Positions 727 through 45,339 of a stretch of 62,500 bases of DNA are shown here, one piece after another (within the stretch, counting starts at the first letter, position 1; every line of letters begins with the position of its first letter). Source of the stretch: Bacillota bacterium (GTDB lineage Bacteria > Bacillota > Desulfitobacteriia > Desulfitobacteriales > JAJXUE01); contig JAJXUE010000013.1 in NCBI GenBank assembly GCA_021783135.1, forward strand, positions 1 through 62,500, read 5' to 3'. The translations under genes were made by a program, and so were the position numbers. The notes under the pieces are model-generated. The model searched no databases. It was not told the origin of the DNA and saw only the letters and a program-made list of their open reading frames with translations.

Positions 727-2376
727 CTACTTCTTAATTTCAAATGAACTTTTTAAGGAAACTATCTGATTAAAAACAACTTTTTCCTGATTTGTATACT
801 TAGGATCGACATTGAAATAACCGTGACGGAAAAACTGAAACTTGTCATGCGGGCCGACATTGTGTAAGTTGGGCTCTATAAAACCTTGCAAGATCTCAAG
901 CGAGCCAGGATTAACATTTTCGAGAAAGGATTTTTCATCTTCTTCATCTTGCACGATTAAATCACTATACAATCTAAATTCTGCGGGCCGAGCCTTGCCG
1001 GCATCAACCCAATGAATCGTGCCTTTAACTTTGCGGCCGGTAAAGCCTGAGCCGCTTTTAGTTTCTGGATCATACGTACAGTGAATCTCTTTAATATTGC
1101 CTTGTTCGTCCTTAAAGACATCATTACATTTGATAAAATATGCATGCTTAAGTCTGACTTCATTACCGGGAAATAGTCTAAAATATTTTGCAGGAGGATC
1201 TTCCATAAAATCGTCTTGCTCGATATATATTTCACGCGAAAACGGAATTTGTCGATTACCCATGGCCGGATTTTCCGGGTTAATTTCTGCTTCCAGCATC
1301 TCGACCTGTTCTTCCGGATAGTTTGTTATCACAACTTTTAATGGGCTTAAAACCCCCATTGTGCGCGGTGCTTTCAATTTCAGGTCTTCCCGGATAAAAT
1401 GTTCCAACATTTTTGCGTCTACAATGCTATCAGACTTCGCAACTCCGATTTCGCGTGCAAAAGCGCGAATAGCCTCTGGCGTATACCCTCGGCGTCGCAA
1501 GCCTGAAATTGTGGGCATACGCGGATCATCCCAACCATCAACAACGTGTTCTTCCACTAGTTGCTTAAGTTTACGCTTGCTCATTACAGTATTGGTTAAG
1601 TTTAAACGAGCGAATTCATACTGTCTCGGAGTGTGCTCCATTTCGCAAGCGCGAATCACCCAATCATAGAGAGGACGGTGGTCCTCAAACTCCAAGGTAC
1701 AAATGGAATGTGTTACTCCTTCCAGCGCATCCTCAATCGGATGAGCATAGTCGTACATGGGATATATACACCATGCATCACCAGTATTATGATGTGAGGC
1801 ATGGGCAATTCTATATAGAATTGGATCTCTTAAATTAATATTAGGGGATGTCATGTCTATTTTAGCGCGTAATACCTTTTCGCCGTCTTTAAACTCTCCT
1901 GCCCGCATCTTGGCAAACAATTGCAAGTTTGTGGAGACTTCTCGGTTACGGTAGGGACTCTCTTGCCCGGGTTTGGTTAAAGTGCCCCTGGTAAGTCTGA
2001 TCTGCTCTGCCGGCAAGTCACAGACATAGGCCAAGCCCTTGTTGATTAGCAAAACTGCTCGATCGTACATCGCTTCAAAGTAATCTGAGGCGTAAAATAA
2101 GTTATCCCAACGGTACCCTAGCCACAGCACATCCTCTTTGATCGACTCAACATACTCAATATCTTCCTTGGAAGGGTTAGTGTCATCAAAACGCAAATTT
2201 GTTTTACCCTTAAATTCGTCAGCCAAATCGAAATTGAGGCAAATGGACTTAGCGTGACCGATATGTAAATATCCATTTGGCTCCGGCGGGAAGCGAGTAA
2301 CAACTTCTTTAACTTTCCCCGCATTAACATCGTCTGCAATAATATTACGCAAAAAATTCGATGACCTATTATCCAC
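727..2376 (-). CDS. glnS: Glutaminyl-tRNA synthetase
   Basis: Class I aminoacyl-tRNA synthetase that charges tRNA-Gln directly with glutamine. The 549-residue protein has the expected layout: Rossmann fold with [12 protein letters not shown] at 31-41, the KMSKS-type loop as MSKRK at 265-269, and the two C-terminal beta-barrels of the anticodon-binding region. The length matches bacterial GlnRS (about 550). The start is a GTG preceded by AAAGGA about 9 nt upstream. A TTGAAC-N17-TATTAT promoter lies about 40-70 nt upstream and a hairpin terminator follows. Most Bacillota lack GlnRS and make Gln-tRNA by GatCAB transamidation, so this is a patchily distributed gene, probably acquired by transfer in an ancestor (inference). 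Confidence 0.97.
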
Positions 2377-2416: not shown

Positions 2417-2445
2417 ATAATACTTTTTACACCGTAAGAGTTCAA
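2417..2445 (-). promoter_or_regulatory. Sigma-A type promoter of glnS
   Basis: Minus-strand TTGAAC (2445-2440), 17-nt spacer, TATTAT (2422-2417). The predicted start of transcription is about 35 nt before the glnS GTG. Confidence 0.65.
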
Positions 2446-2543: not shown

Positions 2544-2714
2544 TTACGAAACGCTTTTGCTGTCTTTGGGTTTAGTTAAGCTCTCGGGCAATATGCTGGC
2601 TGGAAAGCGGGGTGCAATATCCAAGTAATCCTTAATCCCGCTACGCATAGGTTTAAGTTTAACTTCCAGACCTGTTGGTTTGGAGTTAAGCCGCAAACTA
2701 ATTTTCCGGAACAT
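2544..2714 (-). CDS. 56-aa hypothetical protein under a c-di-AMP riboswitch
   Basis: I do not recognise this protein. The minus-strand frame begins ATG at 2714, 6 nt after AAAGGGAGGG, and runs MFRKISLRLNSKPTGLEV... to a TAA at 2544. It is basic, without Cys, and has no obvious membrane segment. Its reality is supported by context: consensus promoter, then a ydaO/yuaA aptamer, then a strong Shine-Dalgarno sequence immediately beyond the aptamer's closing stem, then this ORF, then a hairpin. The short distance from aptamer to Shine-Dalgarno suggests translational rather than transcriptional control. In other bacteria this riboswitch controls cell-wall, osmolyte and potassium genes; a role in those processes is only an inference here. 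Confidence 0.65.
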   Translation of the reverse strand: MFRKISLRLNSKPTGLEVKLKPMRSGIKDYLDIAPRFPASILPESLTKPKDSKSVS

Positions 2715-2732
2715 GGCATGCCCTCCCTTTCA

Positions 2733-2846
2733 ACGCTTACGAGGTTAGCTGACGGGTTCGGGTCGAAAAGATTAACCCTACCTGTAGTAATACAGGATTC
2801 ACCCCAAAGTTGGTTCCCCCGCTCTTCCAAAGGAAAATTAAGCGCA
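2733..2846 (-). promoter_or_regulatory. Cyclic-di-AMP riboswitch (ydaO/yuaA class)
   Basis: Read on the minus strand, the leader contains the conserved blocks of this class in order: GGGGGAACCAA, TTTGGGGTGAATCC, a small variable hairpin, GTAGGGTTAATC, then GACCCGAACCCGTCAG, CTAACCTCGTAAGCG. The closing stem pairs CGCTTA (2844-2839) with TAAGCG (2739-2734). A consensus promoter lies just upstream, and the Shine-Dalgarno sequence of the 56-aa ORF begins within a few nt of the closing stem. Identification rests on recognised consensus blocks; no covariance model was run. Confidence 0.9.
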
Positions 2847-2866
2847 ATTACTATGCAGTTAACATC

Positions 2867-2895
2867 ATTATACGCAGATTTGTTGATTTTGACAA
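2867..2895 (-). promoter_or_regulatory. Consensus sigma-A promoter driving the c-di-AMP riboswitch
   Basis: Minus strand TTGTCA (2895-2890), exactly 17 nt, TATAAT (2872-2867). Transcription would start near 2860, a few nt before the aptamer. Confidence 0.85.
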
Positions 2896-2908: not shown

Positions 2909-3508
2909 TTATCTGTTGCGTACTGCCGCTTGTTTATCCAGCCACTTACTCAGTTTCACCGGACGGCGTGGAGCCCTGGCGTGCGCTACGCAGTCTGAAA
3001 CGGAGACGGAATATTTTCTGCCGAACAAATTTCGCTGCTTTACAGTGAAATCGTATTGCTTGCTCGCGATTAGTTTATTTCTAAACCATTCCGTATGAAG
3101 ATGCTCATCGACAAAATTATGCTGCAGCAAACGGATTGTCTCAGCGCTGTCAGGATTTTCTTGGCGCAATCTACTAATTAGTTTGTTATAGTCTTGCATT
3201 GCCTTTTGTTCTAGCGCAATATTTAAACTTAGGACGCCGTTTAGTCCCGTTTGGGCCGAAATATTTCCGGCAAGCCGCCCGAAGAGCGGCGCAATTAAAT
3301 CGCCCAAAAAGGTTGGGGTGCCGCCGATTTCCCTTATCTTTGCCGCTATATTATCGACATGCTGTTGTTCTATGAGTGCTATACGCTCAAAAACGATGCC
3401 GGAGTAGCGTTTGGCAAACCATTTGCTTTGCGCTGTATATAACTTCACTTGACTTTGTTCCAAACTGTAAAACCAATTAAGTTGTGCAATAAGTTGATTA
3501 TTTTCCAT
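2909..3508 (-). CDS. Ferritin-like diiron-domain protein (COQ7/rubrerythrin-like fold)
   Basis: About 199 residues, with a four-helix pattern carrying the carboxylate/His ligands of diiron ferritin-like proteins: LEQSQVKLY, then ERIALIEQQHVDNI (E-x6-E-x2-H), then NIALEQKAMQDY, then FVDEHLHTEWF. This resembles the demethoxyubiquinone hydroxylase-like and rubrerythrin-like families. A possible role is oxygen or peroxide handling or iron oxidation; the substrate cannot be told. I chose the second ATG (3508) because GAGGA lies 7 nt before it and only 1 nt before the upstream ATG. The C-terminus after residue about 150 is basic and outside the core fold. The c-di-AMP riboswitch promoter begins right after its stop codon. 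Confidence 0.8.
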   Translation of the reverse strand: MENNQLIAQLNWFYSLEQSQVKLYTAQSKWFAKRYSGIVFERIALIEQQHVDNIAAKIREIGGTPTFLGDLIAPLFGRLAGNISAQTGLNGVLSLNIALEQKAMQDYNKLISRLRQENPDSAETIRLLQHNFVDEHLHTEWFRNKLIASKQYDFTVKQRNLFGRKYSVSVSDCVAHARAPRRPVKLSKWLDKQAAVRNR

Positions 3509-3612
3509 ATACATATCCTCACGTGTAGTAGTCCTAGCTTATACCGCATCGCCATCAATTATACCGCCTCAACTAACCACTTAATTGTTGGCATCGTTTG
3601 CCATCTATCCGG

Positions 3613-33537: not shown

Positions 33538-33948
33538 TTTTACGTCCCCCTAAATATTAAAAGTTCACGGCTTTCATCCCCTAGGGACGAAAGCCGTGAA
33601 CTTCCGTGGTACCACCCATTTTGGCCAAAATTGACCCACTTAAGCGAGTACACCATATTAATCCACGCTTTCCGGACCAAATAAAAAAACTTCTCATCCC
33701 TAAGGGACGAGAAGTTGTCTCGCAAAACCACCCAAACTGTAAAGTCCGCAAAGGTACAGGAGCATATCCGATACCCCCTTCCAACTAACGGGGAAGAACC
33801 GTCCTAGCCTACTTTTATGTTCAGCCGGCAGCTCAGGAGGGAACTTCAACTGGTACACCTATAGAAGAGCTTTCAGTCTATGACTCTTCCTCCCTAAAAA
33901 GTTGCAGGCAGTTTACTTTTCTCCATCATCGCTTTTAAATTTTCAATT
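33538..33948 (-). promoter_or_regulatory. T-box leader, probable Phe (UUC) specifier, controlling aroF-pheA
   Basis: This gene-free stretch holds a T-box riboswitch. Minus-strand elements in order: a stem I with AAAAGTAAAC near the base, arms AGGGAGGAA / TTCCCTCCT, then specifier region with TTC (33843-33841) followed by CCTCCTGAG as in other T-boxes, then CCGGCTGAAC, an extra hairpin with a T7 tail (33683-33716), the T-box sequence GGGTGGTACCACGG (33618-33605), and the terminator stem (33561-33575 / 33589-33603). When uncharged tRNA-Phe binds, readthrough into the aromatic genes is expected. Specifier assignment is by alignment of the flanking consensus, not by folding. Confidence 0.9.
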
Positions 33949-36802: not shown

Positions 36803-36867
36803 TCACCGGTACTCATTCATAAAGTACACAAAAACTACCCCCTATCTTCCGTAGGTTGCCGTACTCA

Positions 36868-37040
36868 GAACAAGCAGGTCTCCTGGCTTAAGGTCATTGC
36901 CATCTTACGCCTTCCCGGTATACACCAGTGACATCTTGTAAGATAACTCCCTTTTACAGTGGCGGGACCGCGTCAGATTGTAACTGACTTCCCTTTTAAA
37001 CACATTCCCCTCAGGGAAGTGTACTTGCTCCGCTCATGAT
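36868..37040 (-). promoter_or_regulatory. Cobalamin (adenosylcobalamin) riboswitch upstream of cbiMNQO
   Basis: This fills the long gene-free gap before cbiM. Minus-strand consensus blocks: AAAAGGGAAG, CTGACGCGGTCCCGCCACTG, TCACTGG...CCGGGAAGGCG and the B12 box AGCCAGGAGACCTGC (about 36893-36879). With cobalamin bound, the following hairpin-T7 terminator should form and shut cobalt uptake. Confidence 0.97.
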
Positions 37041-37055
37041 TAAATTGTCTTTAAC

Positions 37056-38119: not shown

Positions 38120-39121
38120 TTACTTGCCCGCATTGGCTAATGCCAACGGTTCCAATTTAGCTACTTGAAGTGGCGTACCCAGCACGATTAATAAGTCACC
38201 TGCAGCAATAGTTTCATCCGCGGCGGGATTATTAATTACCTGGTCACCGCGCATGATCGCCAAGATAATAGCCCCAATAGTTTCGCGAATGCCGCAATTA
38301 TTTAACGCCTTGCCCACTAATTCTGATTTGGCGTTAACCAAAACCTCAACAATCTCCATTTCCAGATGTTTGTCATGAATGAGATTGTCAACATATTCAC
38401 ATGTACTAGGCTTGAGAATGGAAATTGCCATCCGCCTACCGCCGAGAATTGCGGGTGAAATCACCTTATCTGCCCCGGCACGACGTAACTTCGATTCTGA
38501 TTCTACTCTGTCCATTCGCGCCACTACCAGCAAGCTTGGGTTTAAGCCCTTACTGGTAAGGGTTACAAACACATTTTGAGCATCATCCGGTAAGGCTGTA
38601 ATTAAGCCTCTCGCCTGATCAATGCCAAGATCTAGCAACAAAGCGTCTGAGGTTGCATCACCATCAACTGCTAAAACACCCTCCTCCCGTAGTTGTTGGA
38701 CAATCTTTTCGTCCTTTTCTACCACCACAAAAGGCACGTTTTCGTTACGCATCCGCTCAATTACCTGATGTCCGACCCTTCCGGCCCCACAGATTATGAT
38801 ATGGTCTTTCAATTTGTCTATTTTACGTTGCATATTCCGTCTCCCAAAAAGTTCACCAAGATCCCCTTCAATTACCGTCGCCACAATTGTACTGGCAAAG
38901 TACAAGGCTATGCCTACCCCAACTACCATGATAAAAATAGTCAATAGCTTCCCTAAAAAGGTATGGGGTATTACATCACCGTAACCTACAGTAGTAATAG
39001 TGGATATTGTGAAATAGATTGCCTGAAAAAAAGTCATTTTCTCCAGGTACATGTAGCCCAAAGCGCCAAAAAGGGTGACACTAATCATATAAATGAAGGC
39101 TAAAGTCAAGCGCTTTCTCAA
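38120..39121 (-). CDS. Two-TM potassium channel with RCK (TrkA-N/TrkA-C) domains
   Basis: 333 residues, MthK-like. Two membrane helices flank the selectivity filter TTVGYGD at 43-49. An RCK-N Rossmann domain follows (IIICGAGRVGHQVIERM, then D in VVEKDEK), which binds nucleotide, and an RCK-C domain lies near 240-325. It probably gates K+ flux in response to ligand or nucleotides such as c-di-AMP, known for several RCK-C proteins (inference). The start is a TTG 3 nt after the ADP-ribosylglycohydrolase stop codon, with GGGGG upstream, so the two are coupled. Confidence 0.93.
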   Translation of the reverse strand: MRKRLTLAFIYMISVTLFGALGYMYLEKMTFFQAIYFTISTITTVGYGDVIPHTFLGKLLTIFIMVVGVGIALYFASTIVATVIEGDLGELFGRRNMQRKIDKLKDHIIICGAGRVGHQVIERMRNENVPFVVVEKDEKIVQQLREEGVLAVDGDATSDALLLDLGIDQARGLITALPDDAQNVFVTLTSKGLNPSLLVVARMDRVESESKLRRAGADKVISPAILGGRRMAISILKPSTCEYVDNLIHDKHLEMEIVEVLVNAKSELVGKALNNCGIRETIGAIILAIMRGDQVINNPAADETIAAGDLLIVLGTPLQVAKLEPLALANAGK

Positions 39122-39124
39122 ATG

Positions 39125-40147
39125 CTAACCCCCGATTTCTGCCTGATGACCTCTGACAATGTGTTGTTGATCTTGCCGCAGCCCAATCAATTGCTCCGCC
39201 AGTTGGTCTAAATTAAGATCGTTAGCCTGGCGCACCTCATCCAGCCAATTCTGGGGTAAGGTTGAAGGATTCAAAGCTGCCGCTAAGGCACCAGCCATGC
39301 CTGCGACAGCATCTGCATCGCCGCCTTGGTTAACAGCGTGCAAAATGGCTTCTTTGGCGTTAAGCAAGGTACAAGCCAAAATAATCGCAGTTGGTACCGC
39401 TTCGTTAGCTGAGAAGCCGCACCCGATCTGCTCATAAACCCGATCCCATAAATCCTTGCCACTATACTCCATAGCTAAATTAATGGAGATTTGAATCTTT
39501 TCGGCTACCGAAGTGAGTCCGTCAGGATAGCCAAATTGTTCGGCCTCTTTGGCCGCCTTCAGAGCTTGCAGCATTACGTAACCTGCCGGCCATCCCTCAA
39601 TGGCTGCCGCATAAGCCGCCGCGATGGCAGCAGCTCCCGCCACCGCTGTGGTACCCCCATGCGTCATCGCCGAAGCTTTGGCAACATCAGCTGCAATTTT
39701 GGCCAAAGCAGCAGCCTTATTGATAATCCCGATCGGGGCAACCCTTGTAGCAGCCCCAGTGCCGGAGCCTTTAAGTGCTACATGACCGATATCCTTGGTC
39801 AGAATAAAGTGGAACGAACGCGAAGAAGTACCGATTCCCTTGGTGTCGCAATTTAACAGATAACGTGCAACCGCAAGTTGGTCAACCTCTCCCACACTCA
39901 GAACAGCCTGAGCTATCGCAACAGTTTGCCTAGAGTCCTCGGTCACTTCTGCCCTGCCCCAACTAAATTGGCTCAAGGGCTGGATTGGTTCGATGAAGCG
40001 ATTGATTTTGTGACCGTATGTCTCCATGATCCTAGCCGGTGAATAACCCTCGGTGATTTTGCCCATGGCATCGCCGACTGCCCCACCCCATAGACAGGCA
40101 ATGGCACGTTCAGCGATCGTTTCCTGCTTCACTTTACCTTTGGCCAT
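39125..40147 (-). CDS. ADP-ribosylglycohydrolase family protein
   Basis: 340 residues with the DraG/ARH fold signatures: GGAVGDAMGK at about 21-30, the metal-binding TEDSRQTVAIA (T-E-D here instead of the usual T-D-D), and NQGGDADAVAGMAGALAAA near 275-293. DraG-type enzymes remove ADP-ribose from proteins or nucleic acids using two Mg ions. ATG 40147 is chosen because GTGGAGG lies 7 nt before it. It shares an operon with the RCK potassium channel, whose Rossmann domain may bind NAD-type ligands. Confidence 0.92.
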   Translation of the reverse strand: MAKGKVKQETIAERAIACLWGGAVGDAMGKITEGYSPARIMETYGHKINRFIEPIQPLSQFSWGRAEVTEDSRQTVAIAQAVLSVGEVDQLAVARYLLNCDTKGIGTSSRSFHFILTKDIGHVALKGSGTGAATRVAPIGIINKAAALAKIAADVAKASAMTHGGTTAVAGAAAIAAAYAAAIEGWPAGYVMLQALKAAKEAEQFGYPDGLTSVAEKIQISINLAMEYSGKDLWDRVYEQIGCGFSANEAVPTAIILACTLLNAKEAILHAVNQGGDADAVAGMAGALAAALNPSTLPQNWLDEVRQANDLNLDQLAEQLIGLRQDQQHIVRGHQAEIGG

Positions 40148-40303
40148 GTCCACGCCTCCACCGACCTAAAAAATTGCACCAATGTTAGTCTATACTTAGC
40201 AACAAAGTAAGATGTAACCAATTTTAATTTTTCTTTACTGCACCATCATAATCCTGCCAGCATAAAAAATATTACCCGGAAAAGTAATGCCAGGATTAGA
40301 CCA

Positions 40304-44310: not shown

Positions 44311-45339
44311 GTGAATATCACATCACGTAAATTGCACATTGTGTCGCTTGCTGTCTTGCTCGGTGTGGGAACCTGCGGTTTGAGTACTGCAATCCACAGT
44401 AATACGCCTGTTTCAGCTTCGGTTTTGGCCCGGACATTTGCACAACAACGTTTTGTTAAACAAGACCAAAAACTACATGTCTTACATACTGCGGCGCCCA
44501 CTGTAAGTCTTCCGGCTAATACGCAACAATCCCTTAATTGGGCTGGCTATATAGATACTCCGGCAGGGAATACTGCTTATACCAGTGTTTCTGCTACCTG
44601 GCAGGTACCTAACATTTCTACTAGTCGCCGCGATGCTGTGGCTGCGCAGTGGATTGGTTTAGGCGGGGTGAATACGACTGACCTCTTACAAATGGGCACC
44701 ATCGAACAAATGCAGAACGGACAACCTACTGCGCAAGTATTTTGGGAGCAGCTGCCCGCACTCTCGCAAGACGTGATGACTGTGCCGACAGGATCTATCA
44801 TTAAAGCCAGTATTGCTGAGGTCTCCAATTCAAACACCTGGAATATTACCTTCAGCGCAACTGATCCTAATGGCCAAACCCAAACTCAAACTCTGCCAGT
44901 CACCCTGGATGCTGCTTATGCGCAAGGCATTGGCACCTCAGCGGAATGGATTAGTGAAGACCCTTCCGATGCTAATATGCGCTTGTATCCATTAGCGAAC
45001 TCCGGCAAGGTGCAATACTCCAACGCTTTGGTGGACGGCCAACCCATAGCTGCCTCGCAAAATCAGGTTCAGCCTGTAGCTATGACCAACAATAATGGCA
45101 CAGTCTTGGTTGCGCCTTCTCAGTTATCTGATTCCGGTGACTCCTTCTTTACCACGGTGCTTAACACTAACGTGGCGCGGCATCGCGGAAATAGGGAGAC
45201 CTGGTATCCCGTGAGCGTACCGAATTGGTTGTCCACCGGCTTGCCGAGCGGTTGGACTTTTCCGGTTTCACCGGCTTTTGATTCAAATTCAGGTTCAGGC
45301 TCTGCCTGGGGTTGGACCTGGAGCTGGAGTTGGAACTAA
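44311..45339 (+). CDS. Secreted G1 family (glutamic) peptidase
   Basis: 342 residues. Signal peptide about 1-37, a propeptide-like stretch to about 72, then the eqolisin beta-sandwich: NWAGYIDTPAGN, SVSATWQVPN, catalytic Gln113 in AAQWIGLGG and catalytic Glu212 in SAEWISEDP. G1 peptidases use a Gln-Glu dyad and work at acidic pH; they are best known from fungi and occur in scattered, often acid-living bacteria. The tail ends in a Ser/Gly- and Trp-rich run (GSGSAWGWTWSWSWN). The GTG start has GAGAGGAG 8 nt upstream. Monocistronic, with a strong terminator. Confidence 0.88.
   Translation: MNITSRKLHIVSLAVLLGVGTCGLSTAIHSNTPVSASVLARTFAQQRFVKQDQKLHVLHTAAPTVSLPANTQQSLNWAGYIDTPAGNTAYTSVSATWQVPNISTSRRDAVAAQWIGLGGVNTTDLLQMGTIEQMQNGQPTAQVFWEQLPALSQDVMTVPTGSIIKASIAEVSNSNTWNITFSATDPNGQTQTQTLPVTLDAAYAQGIGTSAEWISEDPSDANMRLYPLANSGKVQYSNALVDGQPIAASQNQVQPVAMTNNNGTVLVAPSQLSDSGDSFFTTVLNTNVARHRGNRETWYPVSVPNWLSTGLPSGWTFPVSPAFDSNSGSGSAWGWTWSWSWN

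Follow-up and report, generated by a model that had tools for sequence, protein, structure and literature searches.

A c-di-AMP Riboswitch Probably Dedicated to a Conserved 56-Residue Protein in a Family of Bacillota

In the 62,500-nucleotide stretch of DNA analyzed here (the window), a promoter, a c-di-AMP riboswitch, and the gene for a 56-aa basic protein probably make up a small monocistronic unit, with the protein as a genuine, conserved component of the c-di-AMP regulon of this Bacillota family. The RNA is of a known kind with a new target. The sequence itself shows the aptamer, the arrangement of Shine-Dalgarno (SD) sequence and ATG, and a second cassette, in another genus and in other genomic surroundings, whose RNA and protein are both homologous to those of the window. 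According to a preceding sequence-only reading, a mini-protein of its own, and not glnS, is under the control of the riboswitch; a riboswitch-ORF pair in another genome, where the gene order is different and no glnS lies downstream, supports this proposal.

RESULTS

Organization of the riboswitch locus

On the minus strand, the promoter, the RF00379 aptamer, AAAGGGAGG, the 56-codon ORF, a hairpin, and glnS follow one another. A consensus scan placed a sigma-A-type promoter, TTGTCA-17 nt-TATAAT (2895-2867, minus strand), just 5' of the aptamer; at 11 of the 12 consensus bases, its earlier description as perfect was slightly overstated. The aptamer (2854-2718, minus strand) had been read as a full ydaO/yuaA element, and the RF00379 covariance model recovered it at full length, over all 134 model positions, with 109.1 bits (cmscan; gathering threshold, 38) and an E value of 4e-25. 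The element fully matches its class in sequence and structure. At its 3' end, the model extends into the ribosome-binding site of the ORF: the SD sequence AAAGGGAGG (2730-2722, minus strand) lies in the riboswitch tail, with a spacer of 7 nt between GGGAGG and the ATG, in agreement with the strong SD that had been noted at the aptamer end.

The ORF (2714-2544, minus strand; ATG at 2714) encodes MFRKISLRLNSKPTGLEVKLKPMRSGIKDYLDIAPRFPASILPESLTKPKDSKSVS, with a conserved core at about residues 16 to 35. The hairpin said to close it exists, with 14 G+C-rich bp and a 5-nt loop (2529-2497, minus strand; z = -3.5), and is located just outside the 2895-2544 interval. Its T tail is weak (ATGTTTG), and its role as a terminator is doubtful; it may be a weak terminator or a 3' stabilizer. 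Upstream, a gene for a 201-aa ferritin-like/COQ7-like protein (2909-3514, minus strand; Pfam) is external to the riboswitch-ORF unit.

The window genome has three RF00379 elements, of which the window copy scores highest (109 bits). The second precedes an MpsC-domain gene followed by an APC-type transporter (named from sequence only), and the third precedes an NlpC/P60 hydrolase. These two copies thus stand before typical targets of the class, whereas the 56-aa target of the window copy is an orphan protein.

A second cassette in another genus

The search for homologues of the 56-aa product behind other ydaO elements, which the sequence-only reading had suggested, returned one. Among 61 related genomes, the only homologue outside the window's own genome was found in G001 (E = 3.2e-4 for that genome), which represents another genus of the same family; in the named collection, the locus is contig JAJZPO010000117.1 of the MAG "Bacillota bacterium isolate SKS1.bin126." An RF00379 element (L005:1247-1383, 105.8 bits) lies 108 nt upstream of this homologue, a complete 55-aa ORF that has an SD of its own. 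In a comparison of 71 aptamers, mostly from the class, the two cassette aptamers are most closely related to each other (84% identity, versus 68% for the next best; support, 0.983).

The small ORF is conserved at the protein level. The window and G001 proteins share 18 identical residues in a gapless alignment, concentrated in LKPxRxxIKDYLxIAP, and identity is low beyond the 20-residue core. They align locally with a score of 80, whereas the best of 20,000 shuffles reached 53. Synonymous codons occur at 12 of the 18 identical residues, differences within the core are distributed over the three codon positions as 8/6/14, with third positions differing most, and the ORF frame yields 18 shared residues versus 11 in each of the other two frames, which contain stops. 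This pattern is as expected of selection on the protein.

The small-protein family is narrow, with members in two genomes, both of them draft. Wider searches across the order (74 genomes), class (83 genomes), and phylum (398 genomes) found the window genome (G000) and G001 only, i.e., nothing beyond the taxonomic family, and a two-peptide-pattern scan of 84,980 species genomes gave the G001 locus as the sole match outside the window genome. Two draft genomes thus supply all of the evidence.

Mode of control

In G001, the aptamer is followed by an intrinsic terminator (AAGGACCAGGG-TACT-CCCCTGATCCTT-TTGTTTTTG), the SD, and the ORF, which is the classical OFF layout, and a second GGGGGAG precedes the ATG. 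Up to AAAGGGAGG, the window aptamer and tail differ little from their G001 counterparts, and at that point the similarity ends; no terminator is found between aptamer and ATG in the window, the SD is provided by the riboswitch tail, and the ATG lies immediately next to the aptamer. A deletion between two purine-rich GGGAG stretches would explain the missing terminator.

RF00379 tails in the class fall into two types. The first reads GTCAGCTAAC...GCGTTGAAAGG and usually comes with a terminator; the second reads GTCAACTAAC...GAAAGGTG, with the start codon about 24 nt further on and no terminator. The window element is a hybrid, combining the sequence of the first, terminator-bearing type with the direct-SD layout of the second. 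This layout is common for NlpC/P60 and LysM-like genes of the class, in whose leaders the SD is likewise in the riboswitch tail and the start about 21 to 30 nt after the aptamer core. Since such spacing is usual for these genes, translational control of the window ORF is plausible. The direct-SD wall-hydrolase aptamers, however, mostly read GTCAACTAAC...GAAAGGTG, whereas the window reads GTCAGCTAAC...GTTGAAAGGGAGG, and the window product has no recognizable enzyme domain. When the leader was folded with and without the aptamer helices enforced, SD accessibility did not change consistently and depended on the length folded, and pairing of the SD tail with the 5' strand of P2, as a coevolving anti-SD, was no better in true than in swapped pairs.

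For the kdpFABC riboswitch of Bacillus thuringiensis, which belongs to the same RNA class as the window element, c-di-AMP promotes termination, and c-di-AMP levels fall upon K+ limitation (PMC6488665). The layout of the G001 cassette is consistent with this OFF mechanism.

A serious rival to a functional switch in the window is a decaying cassette, in which deletion between the GGGAG repeats removed the terminator and left the small protein expressed without c-di-AMP control. The end of aptamer identity to G001 at AAAGGGAGG, the second GGGGGAG before the G001 ATG, the missing terminator behind an aptamer of the terminator-bearing type, and the inconsistent modeled SD switching all speak for such a loss. 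However, the rank of the window aptamer as the best scoring of the genome's three argues against decay, and many wall-hydrolase leaders of the class have the same direct-SD spacing. On balance, we regard loss of control as unlikely, yet as an explanation to be taken seriously.

The cassette as a unit distinct from glnS

The gene for glutaminyl-tRNA synthetase, glnS (727-2376, minus strand; Pfam tRNA-synt_1c), is the next gene on the same strand, 167 nt after the ORF, and the poor T tail of the intervening hairpin would allow it to be the gene controlled by the riboswitch, with the 56-aa ORF as a leader or spacer. Comparison of neighborhoods argues otherwise. Downstream of the orthologous riboswitch and ORF of G001 come a hairpin and a convergent gene but no glnS. 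The window flanks, i.e., the ferritin-like protein and glnS, have nothing in common with those of G001, which are a response regulator upstream and a convergent CitMHS/ArsB-type ion transporter; the ferritin-like gene had no match in G001 or in its congener G002. The latter genome has the same flanking genes as G001, at 80 to 87% DNA identity, and an operon reading as cysteine-rich 4Fe-4S (glpC-like) occupies the site of the G001 cassette. A homologue of the 56-aa protein was not found elsewhere in G002 (83% complete genome).

Because the window and G001 flanks differ and another operon fills the G001 site in G002, the cassette behaves as a unit: judged from these sequence comparisons, riboswitch and small ORF are inherited together, and their neighbors, including glnS, are outside the unit. 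Sister aptamers, protein homology, and differing flanks together thus indicate one inherited unit of which glnS is not the target.

A survey of the class points in the same direction. The first ORFs downstream of about 90 distinct RF00379 sites include wall hydrolases, lysine-aminomutase-like proteins, KUP transporters, citrate synthase, YopX-like proteins, MpsC-domain proteins, and others (all but the wall hydrolases read from N-terminal sequences), and glnS was seen among none of them. Conservation of the 56-aa sequence also disfavors a mere leader or spacer, as does a promoter-like site just before glnS (2417-2445, minus strand), between the hairpin and the gene. This site matches only 9 of 12 consensus bases, which is within chance expectation, and from it glnS may have its own promoter. 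The sequence-only reading had itself named glnS as the possible real target; given its absence behind the G001 cassette and in the survey, we judge that glnS is not the main target, and control of this gene by the riboswitch appears improbable.

Two side observations come from the same comparisons. RF00379 elements stand before citrate synthase, lysine-aminomutase-like, and YopX-like (~124-aa) genes, all identified by their sequences alone (e.g., L030-L033, L035, L042; L037, L051, L058; L036, L039, L074). In both G001 and G002, a Na+ riboswitch (RF03071) precedes the CitMHS/ArsB-type transporter (G001 L062:5504-5558, minus strand; G002 L124:5813-5867, plus strand), and in G001 the transporter gene behind it converges on the c-di-AMP riboswitch/mini-protein cassette.

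Identity of the 56-aa protein

As the sequence-only reading had it, the 56-aa protein is unrecognized: no match was found in Pfam, NCBIfam, PHROGs, PDB, plasmids, phages, or viral contigs, and it matches no known product of c-di-AMP regulons (wall hydrolase, K+/osmolyte transporter, KamA, YopX, MpsC). The lack of a family match in any library would suit a chance ORF left behind a riboswitch whose true gene was lost. Against this stand in-frame homology in another genus and the synonymous changes in the core, and we consider the explanation very improbable; because its homologue stands behind an orthologous riboswitch in another genus, the sequence argues that the ORF is more than a chance one. 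Least probable of all is a remnant or stand-alone copy of the N terminus of KamA (lysine aminomutase), itself a riboswitch target in G001, since the KamA-like N terminus of that genome, which reads ...LKHRISDYLEKEPDIPTGF and resembles LKPMRSGIKDYLDIAPRFP, has no significant homology to the 56-aa protein (pairwise score of 41 versus a 95% shuffle level of 43; profile-profile probability below 1%).

With a pI of about 10.3, the protein is basic; it is also hydrophilic (GRAVY, -0.4) and shows no obvious transmembrane segment. The first gene of the kdpFABC operon, kdpF, itself encodes a small protein. KdpF, however, is a membrane peptide coencoded with its transporter, whereas the 56-aa protein is hydrophilic, basic, and encoded alone. 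AlphaFold2, run from the two sequences, gave a model of low confidence in which a single short helix lies at the conserved IKDYL, and the protein is predicted to be largely unstructured. With a pLDDT of only 62.6 and a pTM of 0.14, the lack of a fold is the basis of any functional proposal.

Other features of the window

The RCK potassium channel to which the sequence-only reading had drawn attention is indeed encoded in the window (38120-39121, minus strand; Ion_trans_2, TrkA_N, and TrkA_C), but it is 35 kb away and nothing ties it to the riboswitch locus. It is directly downstream of an ADP-ribosylglycohydrolase-family gene (38120-40153, minus strand, for the pair). The window also carries a T-box leader (33580-33938, minus strand; 108.7 bits) followed by a DAHP synthase/chorismate mutase gene (33537-32377), a cobalamin riboswitch (36856-37043, minus strand; 121 bits) before a CbiM-type cobalt uptake gene (36793-36050), and a gene for a Peptidase A4 domain protein (44311-45339, plus strand), here in a bacterium.

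DISCUSSION

If the riboswitch acts on the small protein as other ydaO switches do on their targets, high c-di-AMP would lower its expression. In G001, the response would proceed via terminator formation; in the window, the switch would hinder 30S loading at the ribosome-binding site that directly abuts stem P1. Cells would then make the 56-aa protein at low c-di-AMP, i.e., under K+ limitation or hyperosmotic or wall stress. The least certain step is what the protein does. The lack of a predicted fold and the single conserved 20-residue segment suggest that it is probably a short peptide that would bind and modulate another protein of the c-di-AMP response. More specifically, and with somewhat less than even confidence, we propose a stand-alone small protein that, through the linear motif LKPxRxxIKDYLxIAP, might serve as a c-di-AMP effector, made at low c-di-AMP and binding a protein of ion, osmotic, or wall homeostasis.

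Known targets of c-di-AMP riboswitches are enzymes, hydrolases, and transporters, to which this mini-protein adds a likely regulator or effector. In two genera, a c-di-AMP riboswitch serves it alone, and annotation pipelines would tend to miss it. The window and G001 loci also present the same switch in two natural versions, one with a terminator and one lacking it, that can be compared.
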